From Candidatus Zixiibacteriota bacterium (lineage in GTDB: Bacteria > RBG-13-66-14 > B26-G2 > WVWN01), in the NCBI GenBank assembly GCA_030613505.1, contig JAUWLW010000012.1:1-61982 (forward strand): 61,982 bases of DNA, given 5' to 3'. Both the position numbers and the translations under genes were made by a program. Under the pieces are notes generated by a model. It did not search any database. It saw nothing but the letters and a program-made list of their open reading frames with translations, and was not told the origin of the DNA. Positions 2,646-60,966 of the stretch are shown one piece after another; position 1 is the first letter of the stretch, and each line of letters opens with the position of its first letter.

Positions 2646-2685
2646 GTTTCAACCCATGCTACACAAGCGTAGACAGCGATAGGAT

Positions 2686-14805: not shown

Positions 14806-14808
14806 GGC

Positions 14809-26929: not shown

Positions 26930-26931
26930 AA

Positions 26932-27837: not shown

Positions 27838-27868
27838 TTGGATACCCCCTGCGTTGTGGGAGGTCCGT

Positions 27869-28639: not shown

Positions 28640-28668
28640 CGTATTAGGCTCCTTTTATTATTTTAGAA

Positions 28669-28697
28669 ATACTATCAACTCCGCCCGTCGAAGTCAA
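28669..28697 (-). promoter_or_regulatory. Predicted strong promoter for the uppP-ftsK-lolA-rimO run
   Basis: On the minus strand TTGACT (28692-28697), a 17-bp spacer and TAGTAT (28669-28674). Transcription would begin near 28662, giving a leader of about 20 bases that carries the AAAGGAG site before the uppP CTG codon. It also supports a start upstream of 28597. Confidence 0.7.
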
Positions 28698-28762
28698 TAA
28701 TCAATAAAAGTATTACGTTTGGGGGGGCTTCTTTACGGGACGGTGGGCGCGGGGGGAAGGCC

Positions 28763-30616
28763 CTACTCGATATAACCCAAAGCGCGAAGGTCCGCGGCGC
28801 CGGCCGCGTCCAACGTTGACACCTTGGCTCTTCCTTGTCGGTCGACTTCCCGTTTCCAGGATTGAATCCGCACCCGCAGGCGCGCGGCGATTTCGTCTTC
28901 CGGGAGCGGCTTCAGCTCGCCCGGGTCGCGCCGTAGGTTGAAATATTTCCCCGGTTGGCTCATGTCTTCGTGCTTCACGATGAGTTTGTAGGGCCATACG
29001 ATTATGGCGTCTTCCCGCGGCCCGCGTTTTCGCGGGCGGGTGAACTCGCTGCCGACGAAGATAGGCCGCGGCTCCTCGCCGCCGTCGGAAAGCGGAAGGG
29101 GGCGTCCTTGAAACGTCGCCGGGGCCTCGAGCCCCGCGAGCGCCAAGATGGTGGGCGCGAGGTCGACCTGGCTGACCGGCGTGTCGACCTTCGCGGGGGA
29201 TTCGCCGGGCGCCGCGATGAACAGCGGGACGCGGATTACAGGTTCGTAGACGGATTTGCCGTGGTCCCACGTGTCGTGCTCCCAAAATTCTTCGCCGTGG
29301 TCGCCGGTGAAGATTACGATCGTATTTTCGTCGCCGGCGAGCGTGGGGAGGACCATCGGCGCCAGCAAATCGTCCACGAACGTACATTCGCCCTCGTAAA
29401 GGCGGTGGTGGGCGAATCGCCGGCCTTTCATTTTGGGCCGGTATTGTTTTATAAACCTTCCGTCGCGGGGGAGGTAATACCCGGGGGGCGGCGAGTAGGG
29501 GGCGTGGGGGTCCATGTAATGGACCCAGAGGAAATAGGGGCGGCGGTGCGGCCGGGCGAGATAACGTCCCAATAACACCGTTAGCTCGCGGCTGGTTGCG
29601 GGGCACAGCTTACGCTCCATCAGCGTGCGGGCCGCCGGGCCGTACCAATTGGTGTAGTAAAAGCAGGTAGCCCGCAGGAGGGGAAGCCATTGCCAATAGA
29701 CGAAATTGTCGAAACCGTCCGTCAGCGGGCTGTGCCGGTCGACGAGGCGGTTGGCGACGAAGGCGGTGGTTTCGTATCCGGCGTCGCGGAATAGTTGGGC
29801 CAGCGTGGGGCTGACGACGTCCGCCCGCGGCCCCGAGCGCGCGACGTGCGTATCCACGTATTGGCCCGTAAAGACCGAACCCATGGAGGGGGTGGTCCAC
29901 GACGCGGCGGACCACGCGCGCCGATAGACGATCGCGTTGCTCTCCGTGTACTCGTGGAGGTGGGGCGTGAGGCTGTCGCGGAACGCGTCCGCGCGCCAGG
30001 CGTCGAGGACGACGAGGACGACGTTCGGACCGTGGGCGACGGGTCTCAACGCGGCCTCGGCCCAGCGCGCCGCGACGAGCGCCACGAAGGCGACGGCGCC
30101 GGCGACGCGCAATACCCGCCCCGCTGCCGCCCACCAGTTTCGCCCCACGACGTAGCGCCGCAACGCGAGCGTCCCTACTACGCCCAGAAGCGCGAAGACG
30201 GCCCAGTAGCCGAGGAACGGCCCGACGTCGCCGAGGGCCCACGTCGCGAAGCCGAGGTCTACCTTGCGGGGCACGAAAAGGCCGGCGACGAACCACCCCA
30301 GGCGCGACGCCGCGACCGCGGCCGCGGCGACCGCGCCCCGCCACGGCGGCGTTTTCCCGGCCCTTTCTTTTCGGGTAACTATGAGTTTTCGACCGGCGTT
30401 GACGACCTCGGCTATTACTATAACCGTCAGCACCAGGGAGCCGTAAAACACCGAGCGGCCGTACGCCGATTCCAACAGCCGGTCGGGTTGCCACGTGTAA
30501 AAGGGCGGCCAGAAACGATTGATAATCGCCTCCGACGCGCCCCAAAAGAACGCCGTCGCCGCGGCGAACGTAATAAAGGAGACTATTTTTAAGAGCGCTT
30601 TTTTTGCTTTGTCCAC
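28763..30616 (-). CDS. Five-TM sulfatase-like hydrolase/transferase, paralogue 1
   Basis: A 617-residue protein with five membrane helices in the first 190 residues and an extracytoplasmic sulfatase-fold domain (about 200-600). The metal site starts VVLDAWRAD, the nucleophile position is Thr 241 in SWTTPSM rather than the Cys/Ser of formylglycine sulfatases, and TGDHGEEFWEH carries later metal ligands. The architecture resembles LtaS/EptA-type phosphoglycerol or phosphoethanolamine transferases, so modification of an envelope polymer or lipid is more likely than sulfate release. The start is GTG 30616 with a poor ribosome-binding site. FFWGASEAIIN in helix 1 is shared with the next two genes. 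Confidence 0.82.
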   Translation of the reverse strand: MDKAKKALLKIVSFITFAAATAFFWGASEAIINRFWPPFYTWQPDRLLESAYGRSVFYGSLVLTVIVIAEVVNAGRKLIVTRKERAGKTPPWRGAVAAAAVAASRLGWFVAGLFVPRKVDLGFATWALGDVGPFLGYWAVFALLGVVGTLALRRYVVGRNWWAAAGRVLRVAGAVAFVALVAARWAEAALRPVAHGPNVVLVVLDAWRADAFRDSLTPHLHEYTESNAIVYRRAWSAASWTTPSMGSVFTGQYVDTHVARSGPRADVVSPTLAQLFRDAGYETTAFVANRLVDRHSPLTDGFDNFVYWQWLPLLRATCFYYTNWYGPAARTLMERKLCPATSRELTVLLGRYLARPHRRPYFLWVHYMDPHAPYSPPPGYYLPRDGRFIKQYRPKMKGRRFAHHRLYEGECTFVDDLLAPMVLPTLAGDENTIVIFTGDHGEEFWEHDTWDHGKSVYEPVIRVPLFIAAPGESPAKVDTPVSQVDLAPTILALAGLEAPATFQGRPLPLSDGGEEPRPIFVGSEFTRPRKRGPREDAIIVWPYKLIVKHEDMSQPGKYFNLRRDPGELKPLPEDEIAARLRVRIQSWKREVDRQGRAKVSTLDAAGAADLRALGYIE

Positions 30617-30779
30617 GCTATTCGAGAAGCTCGAGCCGCGGCGTTAATCTCGTCTTCCATATGGGCCGACGCGCGTGCCCCGAGACGTCTTGCGATAGCG
30701 ACGGGCGCAAACGCTTCGTTCGTCACGGCCCGCCACGCCGGCCTGCCCCGGCGCGTTCCTCGCGGCAAGGTGGTTTGCT

Positions 30780-32636
30780 CTATTGAACGTAACCCAAGGC
30801 GCGGAGGTCCGCGGCGTCCGCGAAATCCGCGGCTCGAGCGGGCTGCGAGTCTTTGGGCTTAACGGCCTTCTTCCACTTTTTCAATTTCGCCCGGAGCGCT
30901 CGGGCCGCGTCGTCTTCCGGGAGGCGGTTGCGCTCGCCCGGGTCTTGCTCCAGGTTGTAGTACTCGCCGGGCGCGTCCATCTTCCAGTGCTCGAGGCTCA
31001 ACTTCCAAGGCCACAGTACGACGGCGTCTCGCCGCGGCGGCCGGTAGTCTTTCCGGTCGGTGTAATCGCTGCCGATGAAGATTAGTTTGTCTTGGCCCTC
31101 CCGCGGCGTCCCCACGAGAGGCCGCCCGGGCATATCAGCGGGTACGTCGACGCCGGCGAGGTAGAGGAAAGTCGGCGTCAGGTCGATGAGGCCGGTGGGC
31201 ACGTCGCTCACGGCCGGCTCCCGCCCCGGGACCGCGACTATGAGGGGCACGCGCGTGACCGTTTCGTAGACCGATTTGCCGTGGCCGTACGTGTAGTGCT
31301 CCCAGAACTCCTCGCCGTGGTCGCTGGTTATAATTACGACGGTGTTGTCGGGGTCCGGTATGGCCTTGAAAACTCGCGGCAGGAGGTCGTCCAGGAAGGC
31401 GCATTCGCCCTCGTAGAGGCGGTGGTAGGCGTCGCCCCGCTCGCGCAGGTAGGGCTTATGGTCTTTTATGAATTTTTCGTCGGCGGGGTCGTAGTAACCG
31501 GGCGGGGGGTTATACGGCGCGTGGGGGTCCATATAGTGTACCCACAAAAAGAACGGCCTGCGGCGCGGCCCGGCGAGGTACGACCGCGTAAGCCGCGTGA
31601 TAGTGCGGCTCGTCTCGGGCCGGTACCGTTTGCGGGGGAGGTACTTTTGGCGGACCGGCGCGCAGCACCAGTTGGTGCTGTAAAAATGTATCGCGCGGAG
31701 GCGCGGCCGCCAGTCCCAGTATATGAAGTAATCGAAGCCGGTGGTAATAGGCGTATAGTGCTCCAGGACGGTGTTGCCCACGACGGCGCCGGTGTCGTAA
31801 CCGACGTCGCGCAGGTACGCCGCCGCGGTGCGGTGGAGGTCGTGCGTGGGCCGGGGCCACAGCCGCGTCGCGTCCGGATAGTGGCCCGTAAAGCACGCCG
31901 CCATCGACGGGTACGTCCACGGCGCGCACGCCCACGTGCGTTCGTAAACGACGGCGTTTTTTTCCGCGTAGGCCGACAGCTTGGGCATAAGGTCCGGCCG
32001 AAAGCAATCGGCTCGCCACGCGTCGAGCACGATGAACAGGATATTGGGGCCTCGGGGAACGGGCCGGAGGGCGGGGACGACGAAGTGCGCCGCGACGAGA
32101 AGGGCGAACCCCGCGACGCCGACGACGCGCAAGACCTTCCCGGCCCGCCGCCACCGCTTTCCCGCGGCGCGCCGGGCTAGTAGGACGGCGAGGCCTACGC
32201 CCAGAACGACGAACGCGAGCCAATATTCTAAAAACGGCGCCGGCTCGCGGAGGTTCACGACCAAATCGCCGATCTTAACTTTGCCTTTGCGGAAGAGGCC
32301 GATGACGAACCAGCCGACGTTGGAAGTTACCAACGCCGCCGTTACCGCGGCGGTACCCCACCGGCGCGCCGTCTCCAGCACCCGTTTGCCGGTTAGGAGT
32401 TTCACGACGCCGGATATTATTAACGCCGCGACGGCCGCGGCCGCGGCGAGCATGCCTACGACGAAGAAGTAGAACACCGCCCGCCGGTACGCCGATTCGT
32501 AGACGAGGTCGCCCCACCACGTCCCGGCGGGGTGCCAGAAATAGTTGAAGACGGCTTCCGTCGCGCCCCAGAAGAACGCCAAGGCTACGACGAACGTCGC
32601 CCATGCCAAAACACTCTTTAACGTTTTGATAACCAT
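30780..32636 (-). CDS. Five-TM sulfatase-like hydrolase/transferase, paralogue 2
   Basis: A 618-residue tandem paralogue of the gene at 28763. It has the same layout: five N-terminal helices with FFWGATEAVFNYFW, then the catalytic domain with VVLDAWRADCF, WTYPSM (Thr at the nucleophile position) and SDHGEEFWEH plus YGHGKSVYE. The conserved LWVHYMDPHAPYNPPPGYY block (positions about 378-396) binds the active-site side in this group. It is separated from paralogue 1 by 163 bases that hold no clear promoter or gene, and from paralogue 3 by 44 bases. Confidence 0.83.
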   Translation of the reverse strand: MVIKTLKSVLAWATFVVALAFFWGATEAVFNYFWHPAGTWWGDLVYESAYRRAVFYFFVVGMLAAAAAVAALIISGVVKLLTGKRVLETARRWGTAAVTAALVTSNVGWFVIGLFRKGKVKIGDLVVNLREPAPFLEYWLAFVVLGVGLAVLLARRAAGKRWRRAGKVLRVVGVAGFALLVAAHFVVPALRPVPRGPNILFIVLDAWRADCFRPDLMPKLSAYAEKNAVVYERTWACAPWTYPSMAACFTGHYPDATRLWPRPTHDLHRTAAAYLRDVGYDTGAVVGNTVLEHYTPITTGFDYFIYWDWRPRLRAIHFYSTNWCCAPVRQKYLPRKRYRPETSRTITRLTRSYLAGPRRRPFFLWVHYMDPHAPYNPPPGYYDPADEKFIKDHKPYLRERGDAYHRLYEGECAFLDDLLPRVFKAIPDPDNTVVIITSDHGEEFWEHYTYGHGKSVYETVTRVPLIVAVPGREPAVSDVPTGLIDLTPTFLYLAGVDVPADMPGRPLVGTPREGQDKLIFIGSDYTDRKDYRPPRRDAVVLWPWKLSLEHWKMDAPGEYYNLEQDPGERNRLPEDDAARALRAKLKKWKKAVKPKDSQPARAADFADAADLRALGYVQ

Positions 32637-32680
32637 GCGGTAACTCTATTTTCCATGCCGGCCTGTTGAAATCGTAGCTA

Positions 32681-34516
32681 TTAAATATACCCTAGGGCCC
32701 GGAGGTCCGGCGCCGCCTCGTCCCCATAATCCGGACAAGTGTATGCTTGTTTATTCTCCGCCCTCCACGCTCGAAGCGCCCTTCGGAGCCGTTTGGCGTT
32801 GTCGTCTCGCGGCAGTCGGTGCTTCTCGCCGGGGTCGGCGGCGAGGTTGTAGTATTCGCCCCGTCGCCCGGGTTTTTCGTGAAACAAGATAAGTTTATAA
32901 GGCCAAATGATTACGGCGTCCCGGCGTTCGGGTTTTTTCGCGCGGAGCCTGAAAGAAAAGCTCCCGATGAATACGGGCCGACTCTCGTCGTGGATAACGC
33001 CGCCCGCCGGCGTGAGGAAAGGCCGGCCCTGCATCGTTGGCGGCGGCTCGCGCCCCGCGAGTGTCAGGAATGTCGGCGCGACGTCCACCAGGCTTACGGG
33101 GGTGCGGACTACCTCCGCCTCCGCGCCCGGCAAAGACATAATTAGAGGTACGCGTACCAGCGTATCGTATACCGACTTGCCGTGGCCGTACGTATACTTC
33201 CGGTGTTCCCAGAATTCCTCGCCGTGGTCCGCCGTGATCGCGACGACGGTGCGCGGTCGCGAGGCCAGCTCGGGTACGACTTCCCCCAATAAGTCGTCCA
33301 TAAAAACACATTCGCCGTCGTAAAGCCGTTTGTAAGCGTCGCGCAGGCCGGGGTCCCACGGACGGTAGTCCTGGATGTACTTCTCGTCGGCGGGGTCGTA
33401 GTAGCCGGGGGGAGGTTTGTAGGGGCCGTGGGGGTCCATGTAATGTACCCACAGGAAATAGGGGCGCTTGTGGGGGCGGTTGGCGTACGAGGCCATTTTC
33501 CGGGTAAGAATTTGGCTGTCCCGGTAGCTCGGCTTGCCGTGGAAAAGGTCGCGCACCGCCGGGCCGTACCAGTGCGTCTCGTAGAAATGTATGCCGCTGA
33601 GAACCGGGTTCCAACCCGGGAAGTAGAAATTCTCGAAGCCGTCGTTTATAGTGTTGTGGCGGTTGAGGATGCGGTTTGCTGAGAAGGCCGTGGTCTCGTA
33701 ACCGGCCGCGTATAGGAGCTGCGCCAGCGTGGGGTTACGGTTATCCGAGTCGGGGTGCCGGCGGAGCTTGTGCGTGTCGTGGTATTGCCCGGTGAACGTC
33801 GTCGTCATCGCCGGCAGCGTCCACGTCCCGTTGGTCCACGCGCGCTCGAAGAAGAGGGCTTTTTCCCGGCTGAACGAGTATAAATTGGGCATCAAATCCG
33901 GCCGCAGCGTATCGGCCCGCCAGGCGTCGAGGACGATAAGAATTATATTGGGCCCGGTGGCTCGCGGCCGCAACGTTTGAGACGCGTGGTAGGTAACGAC
34001 GACCGCGAGGAAAAGCGCCGCGCCGGCCGCTTGGAGGTATCGCGCCGTTTTCCTCGCCCAGCGTCTCTTCCCCAACGCGAACGCGAGGCCGAAGGCCACT
34101 GCCGCCCCCGCGAGCGCGAAGAACCCCCAGTACTCGAAAAAAGGCGCCCGCTCCTGTATGTCCAGTTTGAAGAGGCCGACGTTCAGTTCGTAGGAGTTGG
34201 CCAGGCCGAGCGTTAACCAGCCGGCGTTGACCGCGACGACGGCCGCGACCGCGGTCGCGCCGCTCCACCGCCCGGGGCCCCCCGGCCACCGCCTCTCTAT
34301 GAGCGCCTTCAATCCAACTGCCAGGAGGGTTATAACGGCCACCGCCGCGGCGTAGAAGACCACGCGGTTGTACGTCGAGGGGAGCCACAGGTCCGTCCGC
34401 CACACGCCCTTGGGCGGCCAACGGTAATTGATAAAAGCTTCCGCCGCGCCCCAGAAGAACGCGACGGCGGCGACGAACGCCGCCCATGCCAGGATTCTCC
34501 GCAAGACTCTAGCCAT
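32681..34516 (-). CDS. Five-TM sulfatase-like hydrolase/transferase, paralogue 3
   Basis: A 611-residue tandem paralogue with FFWGAAEAFINYRWPP in helix 1, VVLDAWRADTL, WTLPAM (Thr at the nucleophile position), ADHGEEFWEH and YGHGKSVYD. It starts 7 bases downstream of the alkaline-phosphatase-superfamily gene, so those two are almost surely one transcript. The three copies are clearly diverged from each other, so the triplication is old and each copy may act on a different acceptor. The exact reaction cannot be read from sequence. Confidence 0.83.
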   Translation of the reverse strand: MARVLRRILAWAAFVAAVAFFWGAAEAFINYRWPPKGVWRTDLWLPSTYNRVVFYAAAVAVITLLAVGLKALIERRWPGGPGRWSGATAVAAVVAVNAGWLTLGLANSYELNVGLFKLDIQERAPFFEYWGFFALAGAAVAFGLAFALGKRRWARKTARYLQAAGAALFLAVVVTYHASQTLRPRATGPNIILIVLDAWRADTLRPDLMPNLYSFSREKALFFERAWTNGTWTLPAMTTTFTGQYHDTHKLRRHPDSDNRNPTLAQLLYAAGYETTAFSANRILNRHNTINDGFENFYFPGWNPVLSGIHFYETHWYGPAVRDLFHGKPSYRDSQILTRKMASYANRPHKRPYFLWVHYMDPHGPYKPPPGYYDPADEKYIQDYRPWDPGLRDAYKRLYDGECVFMDDLLGEVVPELASRPRTVVAITADHGEEFWEHRKYTYGHGKSVYDTLVRVPLIMSLPGAEAEVVRTPVSLVDVAPTFLTLAGREPPPTMQGRPFLTPAGGVIHDESRPVFIGSFSFRLRAKKPERRDAVIIWPYKLILFHEKPGRRGEYYNLAADPGEKHRLPRDDNAKRLRRALRAWRAENKQAYTCPDYGDEAAPDLRALGYI

Positions 34517-34523
34517 CGCGGCG

Positions 34524-35903
34524 TTAACCGATGATTTTTCCTATTGTGTTTTTGGGGGGCTCGAGGCCGAAGGCCTTTATTACCGTCGGCGCCACGTCGT
34601 AGATTTTAAGGTCGTCGCGGCGGCCGGAGGCCACGCCCGGGCCGGCGTAAGCGCAGATGCCGTGCTGGGCGTGGTTGGCGTCGTCGGGGCCGGTGTCGTT
34701 CTCGTGGACGTGGACCGCGGCGTTGCCGACGGAGCCGATGGACCGCCAGTCGAGGTCGCCGAAGTAGACGATCAGGTCCGGCGCGACGTTGCCGACGGCG
34801 CGGTAGAGCTCCTCCGGCCTGAACGCCCGCGTACCGATGTTGACGCCCTGTTCGTCCGTTATGGCCTCGAGCTTTTCCTTGAGCTCGGTGCGTACTTTCT
34901 CGTAATCGCCGGCCGGGATGGTGCCCTGCGGCTCGCGGCCCGCGACGTTGAGGAAGCACCGGCCGTAGTAGCCGCCGTCGCCCCAGGCCGTCGTCTTTTC
35001 CCAGTCGACGAGGTCGTATTTAAACTTCGTCCGCTCGAGCGGCGGCTCCTTGAGCGCCAGGTAACCCTCTTTAATCAACCAATCGTTGAAGCAGATGCCG
35101 CCGACCATACTCTTGATGCCGTGGTCCGAGACTATCATGACGTGGGCGTCGTCCGGCAGCACCGCTATGAACTCGCCGACCTTGCCGTCCAAGTAGACGT
35201 AGTATTCTTTTAATTTATCCTTGTAGCGCGGGTCCTCCTCGTAGTTGGGATGCGTCGGGTCGAAGTACTTCCACATGCCGTGGTGCAGCCGGTCCGGCCC
35301 CATCTCGACGAACATAAGGAAGTCCCACGGCTTGTTGGTGGCCAGCCACCGGACGACGTCGAAGCGGTTGGCGGTCATCTTCCACACCTGCTCGAGGAGG
35401 TACTCCTTGTCGTCGGTGCGGAAGTCGCCGACGTCGATGATGTATTCGCCGAACTCTTTTATTATTTCGCTCTTGAGCGAGGCGGGGTAGGTGAACTCGC
35501 TGTCGGCGTCGGGCGTGAGGAAGCAGGAGATGAGGTGGCCGTTGACCGGCTTGGGCGGGTAGCTGGGCGGCACGCCGACGACGATGACCTGCTTGCCGGC
35601 GCGGCCCAGCACGTCCCAAGCCGCGTCGACGCGGACCGCCTGCGAGTTGGCGAAGAAGAGGCCGTCGTAGGAGTGGTCGCGGCGGTTGCGGAAGCCGTAG
35701 AAGCCGAGCTGGCCCGGGTCCTGCGACGTCATCATGCACATCCACGCCGGGACCGTGATGGCCGGGATGGTGGACTCCAGCGGCCCCCAGGTGCCGCGTT
35801 CCACTATGGATTTAATGTTCGGCAGCTCGTCTAGCCACTTGTCGAATACGAGGACCGGGTCCGCGCAGTCCAGGCCGATGACGGCGAGTTTGGGAGTGGG
35901 CAT
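34524..35903 (-). CDS. Alkaline-phosphatase-superfamily (type I phosphodiesterase-like) enzyme, intact
   Basis: A 459-residue protein without a signal peptide, so likely cytoplasmic. All catalytic landmarks are present: metal Asp 12 in GLDCAD, nucleophile Thr 50 in PAITVPAW, GPDRLHH with the DxxxH metal pair, VSDHG, and a late His in NHAQHG. Relatives hydrolyse phosphodiesters or nucleotide pyrophosphates, but the substrate here is unknown. It lies between the type IIG gene (18 bases upstream) and the three sulfatase-like genes. Two dead copies of its first codons occur at 39763-39825 and 40622-40732, and the remote pseudoenzyme at 12080 is a relative. Confidence 0.9.
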   Translation of the reverse strand: MPTPKLAVIGLDCADPVLVFDKWLDELPNIKSIVERGTWGPLESTIPAITVPAWMCMMTSQDPGQLGFYGFRNRRDHSYDGLFFANSQAVRVDAAWDVLGRAGKQVIVVGVPPSYPPKPVNGHLISCFLTPDADSEFTYPASLKSEIIKEFGEYIIDVGDFRTDDKEYLLEQVWKMTANRFDVVRWLATNKPWDFLMFVEMGPDRLHHGMWKYFDPTHPNYEEDPRYKDKLKEYYVYLDGKVGEFIAVLPDDAHVMIVSDHGIKSMVGGICFNDWLIKEGYLALKEPPLERTKFKYDLVDWEKTTAWGDGGYYGRCFLNVAGREPQGTIPAGDYEKVRTELKEKLEAITDEQGVNIGTRAFRPEELYRAVGNVAPDLIVYFGDLDWRSIGSVGNAAVHVHENDTGPDDANHAQHGICAYAGPGVASGRRDDLKIYDVAPTVIKAFGLEPPKNTIGKIIG

Positions 35904-35921
35904 TGTAATCTCCTGAATTAA

Positions 35922-38900
35922 CTAGGCGTAACGCTCGCCGGGTTTCCAACGTTTAACGGCGATAACGCGCGTGGGAGCGCCGGGCAACTCGGTCTTAATA
36001 ACTTCGCTTAAAGGGAACTCTTTTACGCGTCGTTTTATAAATTTCTTTTCCGCCGCCGTAAGCTCGGAATACGCGTCGAGCACCAAGTCATCCAACTCGG
36101 CTTCGAGGGCGCGGAGTTTTTCGGCGAGCGTCGGTTTGCGGGCGGACCATTCTTCTAAAATAGTTAACGCTTCCGCTAGGGTCGACGCGTCGCGGGGAAC
36201 GGGCGTCGCCTCGAGAGCTTTTTTAGATAAATAATCTTTACTCTCGAGCAAAGCCCGATAAAGGATATATTTCAGAACGTCGACGTCGCCGCGAACGGAA
36301 CTTAACGAGTCATCTTGAAGGACACCTTCGTCGAATACCTCCGAACTCTCGACGTGTAGTTTCGCGATATAAGGCCGGAAGTCGGCGCTCGGGTGTTGGG
36401 CGAAGGGGACCGTCGCCCCGCCTATCGCCTTGTCCAATTTTTCCGTTACCGCCCGGTCGCCGCCGACCATCTCGCGCGCCAGGTCGTGGGCTCTCGCTGA
36501 AGCGCCAGCTATCGCGGCGGTTAAGCCCGGTTCCTTAATTAACCTAGCGGGGAAGGGCAAGGACTCGAGGACGCGTACGTAGAAATGCGAATAAAATTTC
36601 TGGATTACGCCGGCCCTTAAGTTTAAAAGGGCGTAATAACGCGGCACTAATGAATTTATTAAACCGGCTAATAAACAGGGGTCGTTCGGATATCCGGGTT
36701 TGGATTTAGCGGCGCTACAACCCATAAGCGTATTTAGGAAAACCGTAAACCGCTCGGGCCGAAAAACTACGGCCTGCGCCGTTAAAGATAAGTTAGGTAC
36801 TATTACTTGGTTTTCTTCGAAGAACGCACGTGACTTAGCGTCGGACAATACTTCTTCGCGGTAGTCGATGTAGCGGCCTTGCCAGTCTATGGACCAGGCG
36901 CGGACTTCGCGGCCGTCGAGAACCGGGACCGGGTTGCCGATTTCCTTCGGGTCTTCTGATATCAACTTACTACGGTCGACTTTGGTGCGGGTCGCCGCGC
37001 CCCAGCCGGCAGAGAGAGGCTTGGGGCACTGGTTAAGCTTTTCGAGGATCGGTAAGTCGCCGGCGGTTAGTTGCAAGCGCCAGGAGCCGTCGGGCGCGAG
37101 GCTGACCCAGCGGTCTTGCTCGACCTCCTCGTATACTTCCGCGGCGGGGCCGGCTAAGTCGTCGAGGGTCCTTATGCCCGGTACTATTTTTACTTTATGG
37201 CCTTCGGGAGGCGGCGTTTTAGTGAGGAATAATAGGAAAGGGTTGACGTTTGCCGAAAAGACTTTGCACCATTCCAGCGGGACTACCTTATCTATTTGGT
37301 TTTCGGCTAGGGCGTCCCGTACCAGCGTCGCGGAGTCCGCGTCGGCGACGCCCAGCGATACGATTACCCCTAATTTGCTTCCCTCCTCGAGCCAATCCAA
37401 CCCTTTGAGGAGGAAATAATTGCTAATGTCGGTATTACCTTTACGGAAGCGGGAAAACGCGTCGGTATAGGCCGCGCGTGCCTCGCGCGACAAGCGCTCG
37501 TTACGGATGTAGGGGGGGTTTCCTACCACGTACTGGAATTCGGCGCCCGAGTCCCGCATTTTTTCCGCGGCTTCGAGTTGGTCGTTATAATATATGTCGG
37601 CCAGGAGGCTGGGCTCTACGTCGGGGGCCCACCCTACAAGAGAGTCGATATTAAAGACGTTGAACTTCGGCAGCGTGTATTCCTCGGCGTAACGTTCGCC
37701 GCGCCTTCGGGCTTCGTCGTACGTGTTAAGGGTGGCGAAGAGGAGGTTCATTACGGTTATGTGCGTCGCGAAAGGGTTTATGTCGAAACCGACGACGCGG
37801 CTTAACGCGTTTAAACGTTCGGCCGCAGATACTCGTTTACTTTTTAATTCGGCCAGAAGCGATTGAGCTGCGGGTACGACAAAACCGCCGGAGCCGCAAG
37901 CGAAATCTAAAATTTTACCTGGCCCGGGCCACCCGACCTCCTTCAATATATACTCGGTTACTTCGCGCGGCGTATAGAACTCACCCAGCTTTTTCCTCTT
38001 TTCGGGGGGCAAGTATTCCTGGTAAAGTTCGGCTAAAACGTTTTCGTCCACCTCTTTGAAGTTGAACGCGTTCAATAGGAAAAAAACTCGTTCCAGGACG
38101 CGGTTTAGGGCGCCGTCGTCTTTGATATACCAGTCGAACAACCCCGGCTCAAAGAACCAAGGATAGAGAAAAGCGGCGTCGTGGTACGCTACGTTTAATA
38201 GCTCGGGATAAGCGTCTCTTAAAAAGGTAACGAACGAACGCCAAACGCTAATGCCGCCGTTAGATATTTTGCGGCCTATGAAACCCTTATCTTCGACGAT
38301 GCGGATAAAAAGGATTTTATTAAGCGCCGAGTAAACGACGTCCGTGAAATAGATATCTTGGAGTTCTTTAGGCTTATCGACGGCGCGGGAGTACGGTTGT
38401 ATCGCTTTAAACGCCGGGAAAGATTTTTCGAATATCTCCCGCGGTACTGAAAATTCTTGGTCCAATTCCCGCCGGGCTTTATCGATAAAATATATACGCT
38501 CTTTTTCCAACATTTTTTTAAGGTGTATGCTATGGGTCCGCTCCCGTTTCCTTTCCAATTCGTCGCGTCGCGGTACGTATTCTTTAGAATAGCTATCGTC
38601 GTACTTCTCCCAAGCTTGCGCTACGTAGCCGTACAACAGATCATTGCAAATGCGTAACCCTTCGATAAGGCGGTCTAAATTATCCTCGTTTACCGGTATG
38701 TAGCAAAATTCCGTCTTACCTGTTCGGAAATCTTCCAGAAAGTCTTCTGCTTCCAGATTGGCAGCTGATACCGACCAAAATAATCCCCGGTCGCGGCGGT
38801 CGGGTTTTTTTAAGTTAATTTCGCCTTGCATCCGCCCGGTAGGCGAATATACTTTCATCCTTATTGGGGACGCTAGAATAACGTATATTTCTCCGCCCCG

Positions 38901-39182
38901 CAGATAGCCTAAAGCCTGTTCCAACGTCTTACCCGCTTCTAAGTCGCCGTCGCGGATCTTAGTTTCAAATACTATATGCGGCCTTTTATCGTCCGCGACT
39001 ACCCTTAAGTCGGTCCGGTCGGCTTCGAAACGGATATTCCTATTTTCGTACCCTAAACCTCTATTTATAACTTGTTCTTTAAATAATACCCGCCATTCTA
39101 TTTCCCCCATATCGGGCTTATCGTCGTACTCGGCCCAATATTTTTCCAACCAATCCTTTTCTTTTTTCGTTTTCTTTACCAT
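35922..39182 (-). CDS. Type IIG restriction-modification enzyme (fused nuclease and adenine methyltransferase)
   Basis: A 1086-residue single-chain restriction-modification protein. The N-terminal nuclease domain carries a PD-(D/E)XK pattern: Asp 58 in RTDLRV, then Glu 73 and Lys 75 in VFETK. The central N6-adenine methyltransferase has motif I DFACGSGGF (about 425) and motif IV NPPYIRN (about 555), followed by a large C-terminal target-recognition region. Such enzymes both methylate and cut at one recognition site, which cannot be predicted here. Base composition is much richer in AT than the flanking genes, with many TTA, AAA and ATA codons, suggesting recent transfer. Its ATG lies inside the end of a truncated HEPN gene (ATGGTAA overlap), so it is coupled to the MNT-HEPN transcript. 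Confidence 0.9.
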   Translation of the reverse strand: MVKKTKKEKDWLEKYWAEYDDKPDMGEIEWRVLFKEQVINRGLGYENRNIRFEADRTDLRVVADDKRPHIVFETKIRDGDLEAGKTLEQALGYLRGGEIYVILASPIRMKVYSPTGRMQGEINLKKPDRRDRGLFWSVSAANLEAEDFLEDFRTGKTEFCYIPVNEDNLDRLIEGLRICNDLLYGYVAQAWEKYDDSYSKEYVPRRDELERKRERTHSIHLKKMLEKERIYFIDKARRELDQEFSVPREIFEKSFPAFKAIQPYSRAVDKPKELQDIYFTDVVYSALNKILFIRIVEDKGFIGRKISNGGISVWRSFVTFLRDAYPELLNVAYHDAAFLYPWFFEPGLFDWYIKDDGALNRVLERVFFLLNAFNFKEVDENVLAELYQEYLPPEKRKKLGEFYTPREVTEYILKEVGWPGPGKILDFACGSGGFVVPAAQSLLAELKSKRVSAAERLNALSRVVGFDINPFATHITVMNLLFATLNTYDEARRRGERYAEEYTLPKFNVFNIDSLVGWAPDVEPSLLADIYYNDQLEAAEKMRDSGAEFQYVVGNPPYIRNERLSREARAAYTDAFSRFRKGNTDISNYFLLKGLDWLEEGSKLGVIVSLGVADADSATLVRDALAENQIDKVVPLEWCKVFSANVNPFLLFLTKTPPPEGHKVKIVPGIRTLDDLAGPAAEVYEEVEQDRWVSLAPDGSWRLQLTAGDLPILEKLNQCPKPLSAGWGAATRTKVDRSKLISEDPKEIGNPVPVLDGREVRAWSIDWQGRYIDYREEVLSDAKSRAFFEENQVIVPNLSLTAQAVVFRPERFTVFLNTLMGCSAAKSKPGYPNDPCLLAGLINSLVPRYYALLNLRAGVIQKFYSHFYVRVLESLPFPARLIKEPGLTAAIAGASARAHDLAREMVGGDRAVTEKLDKAIGGATVPFAQHPSADFRPYIAKLHVESSEVFDEGVLQDDSLSSVRGDVDVLKYILYRALLESKDYLSKKALEATPVPRDASTLAEALTILEEWSARKPTLAEKLRALEAELDDLVLDAYSELTAAEKKFIKRRVKEFPLSEVIKTELPGAPTRVIAVKRWKPGERYA

Positions 39183-39349
39183 CGGTTTTCGCCTATTTCT
39201 TTTGCTAAAATAAAAGCTTTTAACGCTTTTTCCGCCGCTTGGTGGGCTTCAATACAGGCGTTCACGTAATATTTTAAACTAATAAGCCCTTGCGCGGCGC
39301 CGAGGTCTCGTTCCGCGTATTCCAGCCACGCTTTTTCTTCATCTTCCAT
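39176..39349 (-). pseudogene. Truncated HEPN toxin gene
   Basis: Starting at ATG 39349 the frame encodes 57 residues: MEDEEKAWLEYAERDL, then YYVNACIEAHQAAEKALKAF, the first two helices of a HEPN domain. It then stops where a full HEPN protein (about 125-130 residues; compare 39840-40229) would go on to the KTHSLPEL-type helix. The missing end coincides with the start of the type IIG gene, which overlaps by 7 bases. The simplest reading is that arrival of the restriction gene removed the toxin's second half. Its antitoxin-type partner at 39339-39680 is complete. Confidence 0.75.
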
Positions 39350-39680
39350 AAATAACTCGTCCCTTCGCGACGACCTCCTCCCTGAAGAATCGCCTTTTCT
39401 CGCATAGCGCCGCGAACTCTTCGGGCGTATAGACAAAAAAATCTATGCCTACGTACGGGTCGGTTAGGGTTATAACGTCGTCCAACCGGTCGAAGAATAT
39501 TTTGGGCGTTTTTTTGATGACTACTAAATCCAAGTCCGACCACTCGTCGACCTCCCCGGTGGCGAGCGAGCCGAAAAGGATCACCTTCTCGGCGCCGTAC
39601 TCGTCGATGAGGAGCGGGAGGACCCGCGCGAGCTCCGCCTCCAGCGCGGCCTTGCGTCTTTTATGCACCGCGGTAACCAT
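39339..39680 (-). CDS. MNT-type minimal nucleotidyltransferase (antitoxin-like), copy 2 of the phosphatase-side array
   Basis: A 113-residue minimal nucleotidyltransferase with the active-site pattern ILFGSLATGEVDEWSDLDLVV (Gly-Ser and the Asp-x-Asp pair). In MNT-HEPN pairs this protein neutralises the HEPN ribonuclease; the characterised MntA does so by adenylylating HepT. Its first 121 bases are about 90% identical to those of the copy at 40201-40560, while the second half is much more diverged. It overlaps its truncated HEPN partner by 11 bases and has its own promoter-operator at 39688-39739. Confidence 0.85.
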   Translation of the reverse strand: MVTAVHKRRKAALEAELARVLPLLIDEYGAEKVILFGSLATGEVDEWSDLDLVVIKKTPKIFFDRLDDVITLTDPYVGIDFFVYTPEEFAALCEKRRFFREEVVAKGRVIYGR

Positions 39681-39687
39681 ATATGAA

Positions 39688-39739
39688 GGGCGCCTCTCGA
39701 AGCGCCCGGTATAATAACCTGTGGCGCGCGGCCGGTCAA
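39688..39739 (-). promoter_or_regulatory. Promoter with palindromic operator for MNT-HEPN pair 2
   Basis: TTGACC (39734-39739), a 17-bp spacer and TATTAT (39711-39716) on the minus strand, then the inverted repeat GGGCGC-N8-GCGCCC at 39688-39707 at the expected transcription start, 8 bases before the ATG at 39680. The same layout recurs at pair 1. The inverted repeat could be an autoregulatory operator or a 5' hairpin that limits translation. Confidence 0.65.
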
Positions 39740-39762
39740 CGGCTACGACGACCCGCCGCCGG

Positions 39763-39825
39763 CTAGAGAGCGGGCACCGAGTCCGCGTAGTCGAGGCCGA
39801 TGACGGCTAGTTTAGGGTCGGGCAT
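39763..39825 (-). pseudogene. 5' stub of the alkaline-phosphatase-superfamily gene, copy 2
   Basis: ATG at 39825 with an AGGAA ribosome-binding site opens 20 codons: MPDPKLAVIGLDYADSVPAL then TAG. Residues KLAVIGLD and AD match the start of the intact gene at 35903. Homology ends after about 16 codons, and the sequence then runs into the shared promoter region of the MNT pair. It is a duplicated gene beginning, not a functional gene. Confidence 0.8.
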
Positions 39826-39839
39826 GTCGTATGTTCCTT

Positions 39840-40229
39840 TTAAGGTTTAGCGATCGCGAATACAGTTTCGGCGACTTCTCGAGCTAGGGCGAGTGCGTTT
39901 CGCGCTTCGTCTTCGTCCGAAAACCACGACGGCTCGTCGCCTTCGATTAAGTCCGGGTACCGGGTAGGGATGTAATACTTATTTAATACGTCGATCGCGT
40001 CGCGGTATGACGCGAGCGCGGGCTCTTTCAATAGTACGAAAAGCTCGGGAAGGCTGTGGGTTTTAGGTACGGTTTTACCGCGATATAGGAGAAGGCCCTT
40101 AAGCGCTTTTTCGACCGCTTGTTGTGCGTGGAAGCACGCGTTCGCGCATAGCTCCCCCTCGAGCAACTTTTGGCACGCGCGGAGGTCGCGTTCGGCGAAC
40201 TCAAACCAAAGTTGCCATTCCGGCTTCAT
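39840..40229 (-). CDS. HEPN-domain protein (toxin-like) of MNT-HEPN pair 1
   Basis: A 129-residue HEPN protein starting at ATG 40229: LWFEFAERDLRACQKLL, NACFHAQQAVEKALKGLL, KTVPKTHSLPELFVLL and a C-terminal helix ending AETVFAIAKP. This is the group with the 'EKALK...THxLxxL' pattern; no canonical RxxxxH ribonuclease motif is obvious, so its activity is uncertain. It overlaps the nucleotidyltransferase gene by 29 bases, giving tight translational coupling. It is the intact model for the truncated gene at 39176. Confidence 0.85.
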   Translation of the reverse strand: MKPEWQLWFEFAERDLRACQKLLEGELCANACFHAQQAVEKALKGLLLYRGKTVPKTHSLPELFVLLKEPALASYRDAIDVLNKYYIPTRYPDLIEGDEPSWFSDEDEARNALALAREVAETVFAIAKP

Positions 40230-40560
40230 ATACGACCCGCCCTTTCGCGACGATCTCTTCTCGGAAAAACCGGCGCCCCCCGCACATTCGTTCGAACTCG
40301 GCGGGCGTATAAACGACGACGTCCGTAGCAAGCTGCGGTCTGGTAAGTCTCGTTACGTCGTCGATCCGGTCCATGAATCCCTTCCCCGTTTCCTTGATAA
40401 CGACCAAATCCAAATCCGACCATTCGCCTATTTCCCCGGTGGCGAGCGAGCCGAAGAGGATCACCTTCTCGGCGCCGTACTCGTCGATGAGGAGCGGGAG
40501 GACGCGGGCGAGTTCCGCCTCCAGCGCGGCTTTGCGTTTTTCGTGTGCGGCGGTAACCAT
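40201..40560 (-). CDS. MNT-type minimal nucleotidyltransferase (antitoxin-like), copy 1 of the phosphatase-side array
   Basis: A 119-residue nucleotidyltransferase with ILFGSLATGEIGEWSDLDLVV and a C-terminal RRFFREEIVAKGRV block. Its 5' part is about 90% identical in DNA to the copy at 39339-39680. Beyond the DLVVIK codons the two proteins fall to roughly 60% identity, and their HEPN partners are still more different. It has its own promoter and palindrome upstream and is coupled to the HEPN gene at 39840. Confidence 0.87.
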   Translation of the reverse strand: MVTAAHEKRKAALEAELARVLPLLIDEYGAEKVILFGSLATGEIGEWSDLDLVVIKETGKGFMDRIDDVTRLTRPQLATDVVVYTPAEFERMCGGRRFFREEIVAKGRVVYEAGMATLV

Positions 40561-40566
40561 AGCGAA

Positions 40567-40618
40567 GGGCGCTCCTCGAAGCGCCCGTTATCATAACCCA
40601 CGGCGCGCGGCCGGTCAA
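40567..40618 (-). promoter_or_regulatory. Promoter with palindromic operator for MNT-HEPN pair 1
   Basis: TTGACC (40613-40618), a 17-bp spacer, TATGAT (40590-40595), then the inverted repeat GGGCGCTTCGAGGAGCGCCC at 40567-40586, 6 bases before the ATG. Compared with pair 2 the arm is one base pair longer (AGCGCCC pairs with GGGCGCT), so pairing is kept although the sequence changed. This favours a functional hairpin or operator. Confidence 0.68.
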
Positions 40619-40621
40619 CGG

Positions 40622-40732
40622 CTATAACGACCCGCCGGCCCCCTTCTTCCACGTCGGCGTGGTATCGGGCCGGTTATAGGCCGGGTCCGCGCAGTCGAGG
40701 CCGATGACGGCGAGTTTAACGTCGGTTGTCAT
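40622..40732 (-). pseudogene. 5' stub of the alkaline-phosphatase-superfamily gene, copy 1
   Basis: ATG at 40732 with a GGAG ribosome-binding site opens 36 codons. The beginning MTTDVKLAVIGLDCADPAYN matches the intact gene (KLAVIGLDCADP, 12 of 12), then unrelated residues lead to TAG at 40622. It overlaps the stop of the potassium channel gene by 17 bases, suggesting that the channel and the phosphatase gene were once adjacent and coupled. It is the upstream boundary of the whole phosphatase-side MNT-HEPN/type IIG insertion. Confidence 0.82.
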
Positions 40733-41526: not shown

Positions 41527-41593
41527 CTAAGGTGTTCGCTTCGCCGCCTCCAGCAGCAACTTCGCTATCTCGGTCCGGGTGAACTCCGGCGGC
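41527..41593 (-). pseudogene. Duplicated 3' end of sat, distal copy
   Basis: Reads PPEFTR, EIAKLLLEAAK, then RTP and a stop on the minus strand. The 54-base core 41540-41593 matches 52 of 54 bases of the true sat end at 42963-43016. It begins 3 bases after the stop of the HepT gene at 41597 and ends in front of the channel gene. It has no start and cannot be functional. Confidence 0.88.
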
Positions 41594-41596
41594 CGA

Positions 41597-41941
41597 TTAT
41601 TCTTTTACGATCCTCTCGATCTTTTCGGTTAAAGGCGGTAACTCGTCGCGGACGGTTTCGAATACGAGTTCCGCGTCGACGTCGAAGTAAACGTGGACCA
41701 ATCGGTTCCGCATTCCGATGATATTCGCCCACGGGACCTCAGGATGGCCTTCGCGCGTAGCGACCGAGATCCGGCTTGCGGCCTCGCCGATGATCTCTAT
41801 ACATTTGAATAGCGCCAGTGTTAGCTGTTTATCGCGGGCTAAGTCGGAGACCTTCTTGCCGCGCATGAACGTTAACGCGTCGCGCGACGCGTCGAGCATG
41901 TGCTGTAGCCGCGTCCGGTCGTCAACGTGCATATTGCACAA
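41597..41941 (-). CDS. HepT-like HEPN ribonuclease (toxin), DUF86, distal module
   Basis: A 114-residue DUF86/HepT-family protein (111 if the second ATG at 41932 is used). The ribonuclease motif RX4HXY is exact: RNRLVHVY in MRNRLVHVYFDVD. In characterised HepT the Tyr of this motif is the residue adenylylated by MntA, so it is a likely classical MntA-HepT pair. It overlaps the mntA gene by 20 bases. It is only about 45% identical to the proximal HepT at 42306, although their antitoxin genes start almost identically. Confidence 0.9.
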   Translation of the reverse strand: MCNMHVDDRTRLQHMLDASRDALTFMRGKKVSDLARDKQLTLALFKCIEIIGEAASRISVATREGHPEVPWANIIGMRNRLVHVYFDVDAELVFETVRDELPPLTEKIERIVKE

Positions 41942-42212
41942 CCGCCGCTGCCATGACGTCGTCCCGGAAGTATTTACTTAATTCGGCGGGCGTACGTATG
42001 TCGGCCTTGCGGCCTATTATCGCCGACAATTCCAGCTCCATACCGGCGAGGCCTATATAACCCGGGACGTGTCCCGGCTCGAACTCGACCAGGAAGTCCA
42101 CGTCGCTGTCGGGGCCGAAGTCCTCGGTCAACGCCGAGCCGAAGACCGAAAGCCTCGCCATGTGGTACTTTCGGCAGAAGGTTGCGATTGGTTCTTGGGG
42201 TAGTTCTATCAT
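41922..42212 (-). CDS. MntA-like adenylyltransferase antitoxin, distal module
   Basis: A 96-residue minimal nucleotidyltransferase with the active site SVFGSALTEDFGPDSDVDFLV (GSx10DxD form typical of MntA). It is expected to adenylylate HepT. The DNA for its first half, plus the spacer and the sat 3' stub in front (42061-42304), is nearly identical to 42772-43016, whereas the second half is diverged (for example GYIGLAGMELELSAII against GLIRLAAMERELSELI). It begins 25 bases after the stop of the sat stub, exactly as the proximal copy follows the real sat stop. Confidence 0.9.
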   Translation of the reverse strand: MIELPQEPIATFCRKYHMARLSVFGSALTEDFGPDSDVDFLVEFEPGHVPGYIGLAGMELELSAIIGRKADIRTPAELSKYFRDDVMAAAVVQYAR

Positions 42213-42304
42213 GATTGTACTTTCGGGAGGACCCGGTTTAATCCGCCGCTTTCGCCGCCTCCAGCAGCAACTTCGCGATCTCGGCCCGGGTGAACTCGGG
42301 CGGC
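42061..42304. repeat. Direct repeat unit A: sat 3' stub + spacer + first half of mntA (distal)
   Basis: Nearly identical to 42772-43016, with only scattered substitutions visible. The repeat ends abruptly inside mntA near the codons for PGHVPG. The 54-base sat-end core recurs at 41540, 42251 and 42963, that is with periods of 711 and 712 bases. Confidence 0.88.
42238..42304 (-). pseudogene. Duplicated 3' end of sat, middle copy
   Basis: Reads PPEFTR, EIAKLLLEAAK, AAD and a TAA stop, 19 of 21 residues identical to the end of the real Sat protein. It starts right after the stop codon of the proximal HepT gene at 42306. The core 42251-42304 matches 52 of 54 bases of the true sat end. The stop, 25-base spacer and next mntA start are the same as at the real gene. 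Confidence 0.9.
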
Positions 42305-42305
42305 C

Positions 42306-42644
42306 TTATCCTTTATTTAACGCGCCCCTTAGCGCCGTGATTAGCGGCGGGAGTTCTTCTTTTACCGTCCGCCAAACGATATCCAAGTTAACGTCGTGGT
42401 AAGCGTGTATTAACCAATTCCGCATGCCCACGATATCCGCCCACGGTACGGCCGTTAGTTTTTTCCGTACATCCGGCGAGACTTTGTTCGCCGCCTCGCC
42501 GAGTACCTCTAACGCGCGTAAAACGGCGAAAGCGACCATCTGGTCGGCGCCGAAATCGTCTCGCGTTTTACCGGCCGTGAACTTGGTGGCCGCTTCGGCC
42601 GCTTCGACCATATGCCGCAACCGGATGCGATCGTCATCGCGCAT
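42306..42644 (-). CDS. HepT-like HEPN ribonuclease (toxin), DUF86, proximal module
   Basis: A 112-residue DUF86/HepT protein with an exact RX4HXY motif (RNWLIHAY in MRNWLIHAYHDVN). Other family blocks are LRALEVLGEAANKVS and VPWADIVGMRN. It overlaps its mntA partner by 11 bases. Its stop is followed after only a base or so by the sat 3' stub, so the module boundary is very sharp. The protein differs strongly from the distal HepT while their antitoxin beginnings are alike. Confidence 0.9.
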   Translation of the reverse strand: MRDDDRIRLRHMVEAAEAATKFTAGKTRDDFGADQMVAFAVLRALEVLGEAANKVSPDVRKKLTAVPWADIVGMRNWLIHAYHDVNLDIVWRTVKEELPPLITALRGALNKG

Positions 42645-42924
42645 ATTGTTCTACAGCGGCTGCTACGACCTTGTCCCGGAAGTAACGGCTTAAGTCCCCG
42701 GCCGTCCGCAAATCCGCTTTACGCCCAATTAATTCGGAAAGCTCCCGCTCCATGGCGGCGAGTCTTATAAGGCCCGGGACGTGTCCCGGCTCGAACTCGA
42801 CCAGGAAGTCCACGTCGCTGTCGGGGCCGAAGTCCTCGGTCAACGCCGAGCCGAAGACCGAGAGCCTCGCGATATGGTTCGTTCGGCAGAAGGTTGCGAT
42901 TGGTTCTTGGGGCAGTTCTATCAT
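42634..42924 (-). CDS. MntA-like adenylyltransferase antitoxin, proximal module
   Basis: A 96-residue minimal nucleotidyltransferase with SVFGSALTEDFGPDSDVDFLV. It starts 25 bases after the stop of the intact sat gene and is probably co-transcribed from the sat promoter, because no separate promoter is seen in the 25-base gap. It is the direct counterpart of 41922-42212. Confidence 0.9.
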   Translation of the reverse strand: MIELPQEPIATFCRTNHIARLSVFGSALTEDFGPDSDVDFLVEFEPGHVPGLIRLAAMERELSELIGRKADLRTAGDLSRYFRDKVVAAAVEQYAR

Positions 42925-43016
42925 GATTGTACTTTCGGGAGGACCCGGTTTAATCCGCCCCTTTCGCCGCCTCCAGCAGCAACTTCGCGATCTCGGGCCG
43001 GGTGAACTCCGGCGGC
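42772..43016. repeat. Direct repeat unit B: true sat 3' end + spacer + first half of mntA (proximal)
   Basis: Partner of 42061-42304. The part from 42950 to 43016 is the functional end of sat. The repeat includes the stop codon, the whole 25-base spacer and about 150 bases of mntA. Confidence 0.88.
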
Positions 43017-44110
43017 GGCAGCTTCCCCTCGCGCAGCATCTCGCGGACCTTGGTGCCGGAGAGGAAGACGTGGTCCTCTTTGCCGTGGGGGCAGGTCTTG
43101 GTGGAGGCCATGTTGCCGCACTTCGTACACCAGAACGCGTGGTCGAAGAACAAGGGCGTTATCTCGAGCTCGGCCCGGTCGAACTCCTTGAATATATGAT
43201 GCGCGTCGTACGTACCGTAGTAGTCGCCGACGCCGGCGTGGTCGCGGCCTACGATGAAGTGGGTGCAGCCGTAGTTCTTGCGGACGATGGCGTGGAAGAT
43301 GGCCTCCCGCGGCCCGGCGTAGCGCATCGCCGCCGGGTTGACTACCAGGCACACGCGGTCGGCGGCGTAATAGCCGTCCATCAGGGTTTTGTAGCACTCC
43401 ATCCGGACCTCGGCCGGAATGTCGTCGCTCTTGGTCTCCCCCACGATGGGGTGGATCATCAGGCCGTCGACTATTTCCATGGCGCACTTCTGCAAGTACT
43501 CGTGCGCGCGATGGATGGGGTTGCGGGTCTGAAAACCGACGACGGTATCCCAACCCTTCTCTTCGAACAGCGCGCGCGTCTCGACGGGCGATAGGCGGTA
43601 CTCGAGGAAGCGGCGGTGCGGGATGGGCCGGGGCAGCGTTACCGGCCCGCCCAAGAGCACGTCGCACATGTTGAGCGTGGCCTTAACGCCCGGGTGCGCT
43701 TCGTCGTCGGTCTGGAAGACGGCGACGCAGCGTTCGCGCTTGTCGTACGTGTACTTCTCCTCCACCGTCATTACGGCCAGGACGTCGCCGCCCGGGCCGC
43801 CGGTCAGCGCGACCTCCTCGCCGAGCGCAATTTCGTCGGCGACCTCCGGGTCGACGCCCAGCGTGACGGGTATGGTCCAGGGAAGGCCGCCCGCGAGGCG
43901 CATATCTTTGACGACGGCCCGGTAGTCGGCGCCGCTCATAAAGCCCTCGAGGGGGCTCAGGCCGCCGTTGCCGATCATTTCCAAGTCGGACGCGGTCCGC
44001 TCGTCGATGGCTACTTTTTTAATGGTGGCGGCGCGCGCCAGCAGCTCGCCGGCCTGTTCGGGCGGTACGATGCGGTTTATCAGCTTGCCGCCGTGGGGGG
44101 CGATGGTCAT
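42950..44110 (-). CDS. sat: Sulfate adenylyltransferase (ATP sulfurylase)
   Basis: Sat makes adenosine 5'-phosphosulfate from ATP and sulfate, or runs backwards in sulfur oxidation. In 386 residues it shows GLSPLEGFM, the substrate motif VVGFQTRNPIHRAHEYL, the metal-binding CTKCGNMASTKTCPHG and FLSGTKVREMLREG. It is the Sat type of bacteria and archaea, without an APS kinase domain. ATG 44110 has an AGAGAGG site and fits the promoter at 44161-44189; an in-frame ATG at 44170 lies upstream of the likely transcription start. No APS reductase or kinase gene is nearby. Its last 54 bases recur twice downstream behind MntA-HepT pairs. Confidence 0.95.
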   Translation of the reverse strand: MTIAPHGGKLINRIVPPEQAGELLARAATIKKVAIDERTASDLEMIGNGGLSPLEGFMSGADYRAVVKDMRLAGGLPWTIPVTLGVDPEVADEIALGEEVALTGGPGGDVLAVMTVEEKYTYDKRERCVAVFQTDDEAHPGVKATLNMCDVLLGGPVTLPRPIPHRRFLEYRLSPVETRALFEEKGWDTVVGFQTRNPIHRAHEYLQKCAMEIVDGLMIHPIVGETKSDDIPAEVRMECYKTLMDGYYAADRVCLVVNPAAMRYAGPREAIFHAIVRKNYGCTHFIVGRDHAGVGDYYGTYDAHHIFKEFDRAELEITPLFFDHAFWCTKCGNMASTKTCPHGKEDHVFLSGTKVREMLREGKLPPPEFTRPEIAKLLLEAAKGAD

Positions 44111-44160
44111 CGGAACCTCTCTTGTTTGATAAGGAGCGAAGCGTTTAAAATTATTCCGTA

Positions 44161-44189
44161 AACATAACATATCGGCCCTACCCGGTCAA
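44161..44189 (-). promoter_or_regulatory. Predicted promoter of sat
   Basis: TTGACC (44184-44189), a 17-bp spacer and TATGTT (44161-44166) on the minus strand. Start of transcription near 44154 gives a 44-base leader. It likely also drives the two MntA-HepT modules downstream of sat. Confidence 0.65.
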
Positions 44190-60078: not shown

Positions 60079-60085
60079 AGTTACG

Positions 60086-60864: not shown

Positions 60865-60873
60865 TGACGGGAA

Positions 60874-60930: not shown

Positions 60931-60966
60931 AAAGCGAAAGGAAGACATCAGCAAGGACCGTTTAAG

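Follow-up and report, generated by a model that had tools for sequence, protein, structure and literature searches.

The window, which is the whole 61,982-nt stretch analysed here, corresponds to contig G000:C91, from a draft genome of 2.86 Mb (G000). On its minus strand, sat is followed by an mntA-hepT pair, a copy of the sat 3′ end, another mntA-hepT pair, another copy of the sat 3′ end, and an ion-channel gene. The intact sat gene (ATP sulfurylase), which is the target gene, occupies coordinates 42,950–44,110 (within an ORF spanning 42,950–44,170, the start at 44,110 being conserved) and has orthologues in the related genomes G001, G002, and G003; the duplicated segment is its real 3′ end (54 nt, 42,963–43,016). 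Downstream, and all on the minus strand, lie mntA1 (42,634–42,924) and hepT1 (42,306–42,644), sat-end stub 1 (42,251–42,305), mntA2 (41,922–42,212) and hepT2 (41,597–41,941; start codon uncertain), and sat-end stub 2 (41,540–41,594), after which come the native spacer and the channel gene (PF07885; 40,716–41,486), identified by alignment with G002 as the next gene at the empty site. The sequence-only reading had reported that the sat 3′ end recurs at 42,251–42,304 and 41,540–41,593, with 52 of 54 bases identical in each copy and spacings of 712 and 711 nt, that exactly one mntA-hepT pair separates consecutive copies, and that the stubs start right after a hepT stop codon. All of this was reproduced: the single pair between copies agrees with gene calls and with matches to PF01909 and PF01934, and no more than a few bases separate the start of each stub from a hepT stop codon. 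The real end differs from each of stubs 1 and 2 in two positions out of 54, and the stubs differ from each other in three; a match of 96% over 54 nt scores 89.7 bits, far beyond chance. In the last stub, recognisable identity ends 2–3 codons ahead of the stop codon, and its last codons (AAKRTP-stop versus AAKGAD-stop) differ from those of the real sat.

Both pairs consist of a PF01909 gene adjoining a PF01934 gene, with scores above the Pfam cut-offs. The GSX10DXD motif is present in both MntA proteins as GSALTEDFGPDSDVD, and the RX4HXY motif appears in the HepT proteins as RNWLIHAY and RNRLVHVY (both motifs as defined in PMC7641770); the HepT products, which are 41% identical to each other, are also similar to the solved toxin chains 5yep, 7aer, and 6m6u. 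In the type VII system, MntA neutralises the RNase toxin HepT by transferring AMP to it, and HEPN/MNT is predicted to be the most abundant toxin-antitoxin module of prokaryotes (PMC7641770). The modules from the window share with that system the domain pair, the two motifs and the resemblance to solved HepT chains, but they differ in having the antitoxin gene first and in being flanked by copies of a host gene end. They also scored below the NCBIfam equivalog cut-off (28.9–38.2 bits versus 60 bits) and, judged by these scores, are a divergent branch of MntA-HepT relatives and not certified equivalogs. The leader between sat and the module is of only 25–28 nt, and promoter prediction on the module strand, from sat to the channel gene, returned none; since this leaves little room for a promoter, mntA-hepT is likely to be transcribed from sat. 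At the sites examined in the genus, the cargo lies parallel to its target gene, which is not so at locus L165; with this orientation and a short leader, the genus modules would probably be transcribed from their host gene.

The sat gene is present in the four genomes from the genus, and its surroundings form an allelic series. In G002 the channel gene follows sat directly, with no module in between, and this is the empty site, with sat followed by the channel gene, that the sequence-only reading had anticipated. In G003, sat is followed by a single module with its stub. G001 carries a pair of modules and a pair of stubs, and its second hepT is shortened and fused to the last stub. Identity of sat is 93.5% between the window and G001, 84.9% between the window and G003, 80.9% between the window and G002, and 80.1% between G003 and G002, a pattern by which G002 is placed as the outgroup. 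The window, G001, and G003 have an alignable spacer past the last stub, and part of it also aligns with the spacer between sat and the channel gene from G002. This native flank past the last stub, together with the series of zero, one, two and two modules, indicates that modules entered an ordinary gene junction and that a target segment was duplicated. The stubs coincide with the module boundaries in the three genomes with modules, and the case that would have contradicted the initial reading, a stub without any module, was not seen in the genus, where every stub is accompanied by at least part of a module. All the genus genomes are possibly draft assemblies, and the independent assemblies agree. 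Because the junction between the hepT stop codon and the stub, as well as the leader length, are common to G003, G001, and the window, a single ancestral insertion is favoured. The first module would have entered the end of sat after the split from G002.

A plain tandem duplication of a chromosomal segment comprising the sat end and the module, with no insertion event, would account through unequal exchange for the step from one to two modules, and the two modules from G001 are nearly identical. Nevertheless, it leaves unexplained the single module and stub in G003, the native flank and the empty site in G002, as well as the two-copy cases found at other genes (rtcB and the dehydrogenase-like and hydratase-like genes, see below). 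We consider it highly improbable, and as a sole cause it is contradicted by G003 and G002. Insertion with target duplication at sat is, instead, very probable.

Recombination between the repeats is the likely source of the tandem state. The sat-end copies are closer within than between genomes (on average, 3.1 versus 6.2 mismatches per 47 positions; label permutation, p = 0.0034) and, given a single old insertion, this likeness within genomes indicates concerted evolution, i.e., that the repeats recombine. The two modules from G001 are 93–100% alike. Those from the window have 229 of their first 237 bases in common (92–98% identity over the first ca. 237 nt) and then fall to 45–70% identity, so that neither module is a simple copy of the other; mntA2 is chimeric, with a 5′ part nearly identical to mntA1, a divergent 3′ part and a conversion-like tract. 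From these sequence patterns, the modules from the window would be better explained by unequal exchange, with later conversion or replacement of an allele, than by a second independent insertion, the less likely alternative. The initial reading had proposed that each stub provides a place for the next module to land; amplification and gene conversion through repeat recombination account at least as well for the concerted evolution and for the leader and 5′ part of mntA being almost identical in each genome.

Duplication of gene ends extends beyond sat, beyond 3′ ends and beyond MntA-HepT: in the genus, copies of both 5′ and 3′ gene ends flank MNT-HEPN pairs, restriction-modification (R-M) genes, HicAB and other cargo. 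Host genes with no Pfam match were named by reading their sequences. The nearest example directly follows the channel gene, where an array on the minus strand (35,849–40,729) contains three copies of the 5′ start of a gene designated here gene X (34,524–35,903). The first stub (40,675–40,729) overlaps the 3′ end of the channel gene and is followed by MNT-HEPN pair A, composed of a nucleotidyltransferase gene (40,201–40,560, PF01909) and a HEPN gene (39,840–40,331, PF05168), whose real start is probably within this ORF. Behind the second stub (39,771–39,825) are pair B, with an MNT gene (39,339–39,680, PF01909) and a truncated HEPN gene (39,176–39,436; PF05168 positions 2–48 of 117), and a type IIG-like R-M gene (35,922–39,182; best PADLOC match, REase_MTase_IIG) that shares the inter-repeat unit of pair B, up to the real 5′ start of gene X (35,849–35,903). 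In G002, the end of the channel gene joins the start of gene X with nothing in between. A further case lies on the plus strand (60,018–60,931), where the real 3′ end (60,018–60,079) of an enoyl-CoA-hydratase-like gene (59,293–60,078) is followed by pair C and by a hydratase-end stub (60,870–60,931). Pair C comprises an MNT-like gene (60,086–60,439), assigned from its inter-repeat position and sequence and 77 and 67% identical to its counterparts from G001 and G003, respectively, and a HEPN gene (60,436–60,864, PF05168). The hydratase 3′ end flanks an MNT-HEPN pair in the window, G001, and G003; between the window and G003 the hydratase is 92% identical and the HEPN product 56%, indicating that the cargo evolves faster than its flanks. 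Another HEPN gene (58,926–59,273), for which no flanking copy was found, is situated directly upstream of the hydratase-like gene, in G003 as well as in the window.

Elsewhere in G000, the start of rtcB is duplicated (91 nt, 98% identical) around a BglII-type restriction enzyme and a methylase, and the site is empty in three relatives. This insertion corresponds to positions 13,300–15,150 of locus L078 (33,225–35,103 in contig G000:C7), and rtcB apparently now starts with TTG. In G001, three copies of the start of accC, 95–98% alike, surround two unrelated cargos, with an empty site in G003. Three further 3′ ends are duplicated in the genus: that of an acyl-CoA-dehydrogenase-like gene around a HEPN gene, that of a yebC-like gene around two small proteins, and that of another gene around HicAB. 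Likewise, G005, from another family of the same class, contains three copies of an hdrC-like 3′ end around two MntA-HepT pairs, and a broken hepT flanked by copies of a tRNA-Val 3′ end. The repeats were scanned in 831 kb of contigs chosen for their HEPN matches, with 397 kb of G002 (zero repeats) and 400 kb of an unrelated genome (one repeat) for comparison; the resulting densities are biased towards the HEPN-chosen contigs, and the counts still include a few pairs of secreted paralogues and the repeat of a copA start.

The duplications at gene X, rtcB, and accC begin almost exactly at the start codon, a precision that is awkward for our interpretation, being tighter than random staggered ends would predict. 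Additionally, the first codons of the real gene X (MPTPKLA) differ from the native ones, which are kept in the stub (MTTDVKLA; MTTDAKLA in the empty site from G002), and the incoming DNA could have brought its own gene end. This bears on a different explanation, namely that DNA from a relative, consisting of a gene end plus a module, was captured by homologous recombination within the gene end on one side and by an illegitimate event on the other, leaving the native end as the stub. The start of gene X would agree with such a capture, as would the difference in the last codons between the real sat and its last stub and the fact that the upstream neighbours of gcvH are different in every genome. 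Against it, the sat copies are closer within than between genomes and the rtcB copies are 98% identical over 91 nt, as if the end of the host itself had been copied; moreover, a module-bearing donor at the same gene would be required for each of many targets. We regard this capture as rather unlikely.

Repeats with the same arrangement are also found in other phyla. Under a strict criterion (a direct repeat, ≥40 nt long and ≥80% identical, that begins just past hepT, with its partner just upstream of the module), 6 of the 79 named HepT loci outside of the genus carry a flanking repeat, versus 4 of 1,932 control anchors from the same loci (Fisher p = 6 × 10−7, to be taken as indicative, since control anchors from a single locus are mutually dependent). 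With a looser geometry, which includes tandem-module matches and intergenic repeats, the figures are 21 of 80 HepT loci versus 4 of 128 controls, with the same caution. A contig from Thermoflexia (L121, positions 1,779–3,478) reproduces the design of the window, with a methyltransferase-like 3′ end, MntA-HepT, a copy of that end, an MNT-HEPN pair and another copy; the remaining five loci are from Bryobacterales, Armatimonadetes, Thermoanaerobaculum, Melioribacter, and Anaerolineae. A broader proposal is that a putative insertion process joins small defence units to host genes near start or stop codons, duplicates the gene end and generates cassette-like arrays in several phyla, with MntA-HepT and MNT-HEPN modules as its commonest visible users; for the moment, we consider this generalisation doubtful.

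Several known routes of insertion were evaluated. Ku-dependent end joining was rejected, as Ku (PF02735) is absent from the four genus genomes. Insertion mediated by a reverse transcriptase was rejected with less force: RVT_1 has no match in G000, but there is one match each in G001 and G003. The contigs of the genus that contain arrays have no match to the integrase family (PF00589), and G001 and G002 have only two such matches per genome, which may be the usual Xer pair; this lack of integrases on the array contigs, and the diversity of targets, led us to discard site-specific integration. With no Ku, no integrase on the array contigs and no RVT_1 in G000, what is left is an illegitimate event that duplicates its target.

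A further possibility is that the repeats are att sites and belong to integrative elements that target gene ends, or to decayed CIMEs without an integrase, with stacking in tandem by accretion through site-specific recombination. Known elements do enter 3′ gene ends, duplicate them and accumulate in tandem, including CIMEs devoid of integrase (PMC5704250), so that the likeness lies in tandem units split by copies of a host gene end, and one of the cases from G005 is at a tRNA-Val 3′ end. The arrays described here differ, nonetheless, in that their contigs show no integrase-family match, the targets are unrelated and include 5′ as well as 3′ ends, the copies vary in length (46–157 nt), no common core is visible by eye in targets or boundaries, and most units contain only 1–3 genes; an origin as att sites is therefore improbable, and a target-duplicating insertion remains our preferred reading. 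Integron gene cassettes also form arrays of small gene units separated by repeated sites, attC. The resemblance is in the small units with a repeated separator, but the separator here is the end of the neighbouring host gene instead of attC, and each array has its own.

The sequence-only reading knew of no described mode of insertion that copies the end of a host gene, which is incorrect: insertion with a long target duplication has been known for R-M genes since 2000. As described in PMC3874152, PMC3031569, and PMC1643837, R-M genes were found from Helicobacter genomes to insert with a long and variable duplication of the target (Nobusato et al., 2000; Furuta et al., 2010), and the flanking repeats are expected in these accounts to permit tandem amplification by unequal crossing-over. 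Two hallmarks of this process are visible here, with direct duplications of variable length flanking the inserts and single-copy empty sites at sat and gene X (in G002), rtcB (in three relatives), and accC (in G003). Both situations share the lack of a transposase, long and variable direct copies of the target, in the order of 100 bp, and their detection between related genomes; they differ in that the cargo here includes MntA-HepT and other toxin-antitoxin pairs besides R-M genes, in that the copies are gene ends that spare the host gene and delimit tandem arrays of different modules, and in the concerted evolution and the presence in several other phyla. By analogy, what happened at sat looks like one more event of this type, only with a different cargo. 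The phenomenon is thus real, reproducible and more general than first noted, while being less novel in principle, as the mode of insertion had already been named.

Overall, the sat locus likely originated when a type VII MntA-HepT module inserted and ca. 50–60 bp of the sat 3′ end were duplicated, the repeats recombining afterwards. The insertion would have been illegitimate and independent of Ku, and the most likely course would be a template-switching repair or replication event that left and re-entered the chromosome at staggered points, copying a variable stretch; as the joining step, template switching is plausible but tentative, somewhat short of an even bet. We found neither a donor locus nor a very fresh insertion in which the chemistry of the junctions could be observed. 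Selection would keep only those events whose duplication leaves the host gene whole, and this would be why the inserts are at gene starts and ends. The direct repeats would then supply the homology for unequal exchange and gene conversion, which would account for the modules being in tandem, for the homogenised repeats and for the chimeric mntA2.

A literature search for direct repeats around HEPN/MNT genes, weak in that subscription journals were mostly outside its scope, returned no report of such an insertion for MntA-HepT or MNT-HEPN, and we found no account of how HEPN/MNT genes move without a transposase. The extension of target-duplicating insertion to MntA-HepT arrays across phyla looks new, and the new parts would be the toxin-antitoxin cargo, the gene-end arrays of mixed units, the evidence for ongoing recombination of the repeats and the spread across phyla. 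The allelic series, the clean empty sites and the signature of gene-end repeats make both the mode of entry and the growth of arrays testable, and gene-end direct repeats can be used as a signature for recently acquired defence genes. These loci also show that small units can enter housekeeping operons and leave the genes unbroken.

A few other repeats deserve separate mention. The gcvH locus (31,317–33,280 in contig G000:C19, locus L088) was rejected as a clean case, as gcvH is separated from hepT by its native promoter region and the stub is behind another gene. This is a more complex rearrangement, in which mntA-hepT is accompanied by 58 nt copied from the start of gcvH, and the gene upstream of gcvH differs per genome. 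In G003, a copper-ATPase-like gene has a 201-nt copy (90% identity) of its own start just upstream, with no obvious ORF in between (contig G003:C4, L076 positions 17,865–18,619); this may be a duplication from which the cargo has disappeared or in which it has decayed. Repeats in genes for secreted proteins with the C-terminal motif VKALFK or similar (e.g., G003:C11, 63,129/65,181) were discarded as matches between paralogues, not insertions. Many of these secreted paralogues, at 23,000–33,000 in G003:C49 and at 63,129–65,290 in G003:C11, end in (V/I)K(A/G)LF(K/R/E), possibly a sorting or attachment signal. Finally, positions 28,760–34,491 of the window comprise three tandem paralogous units of ca. 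2 kb, with blocks of 60–76% identity, apparently from an ordinary expansion of a gene family.
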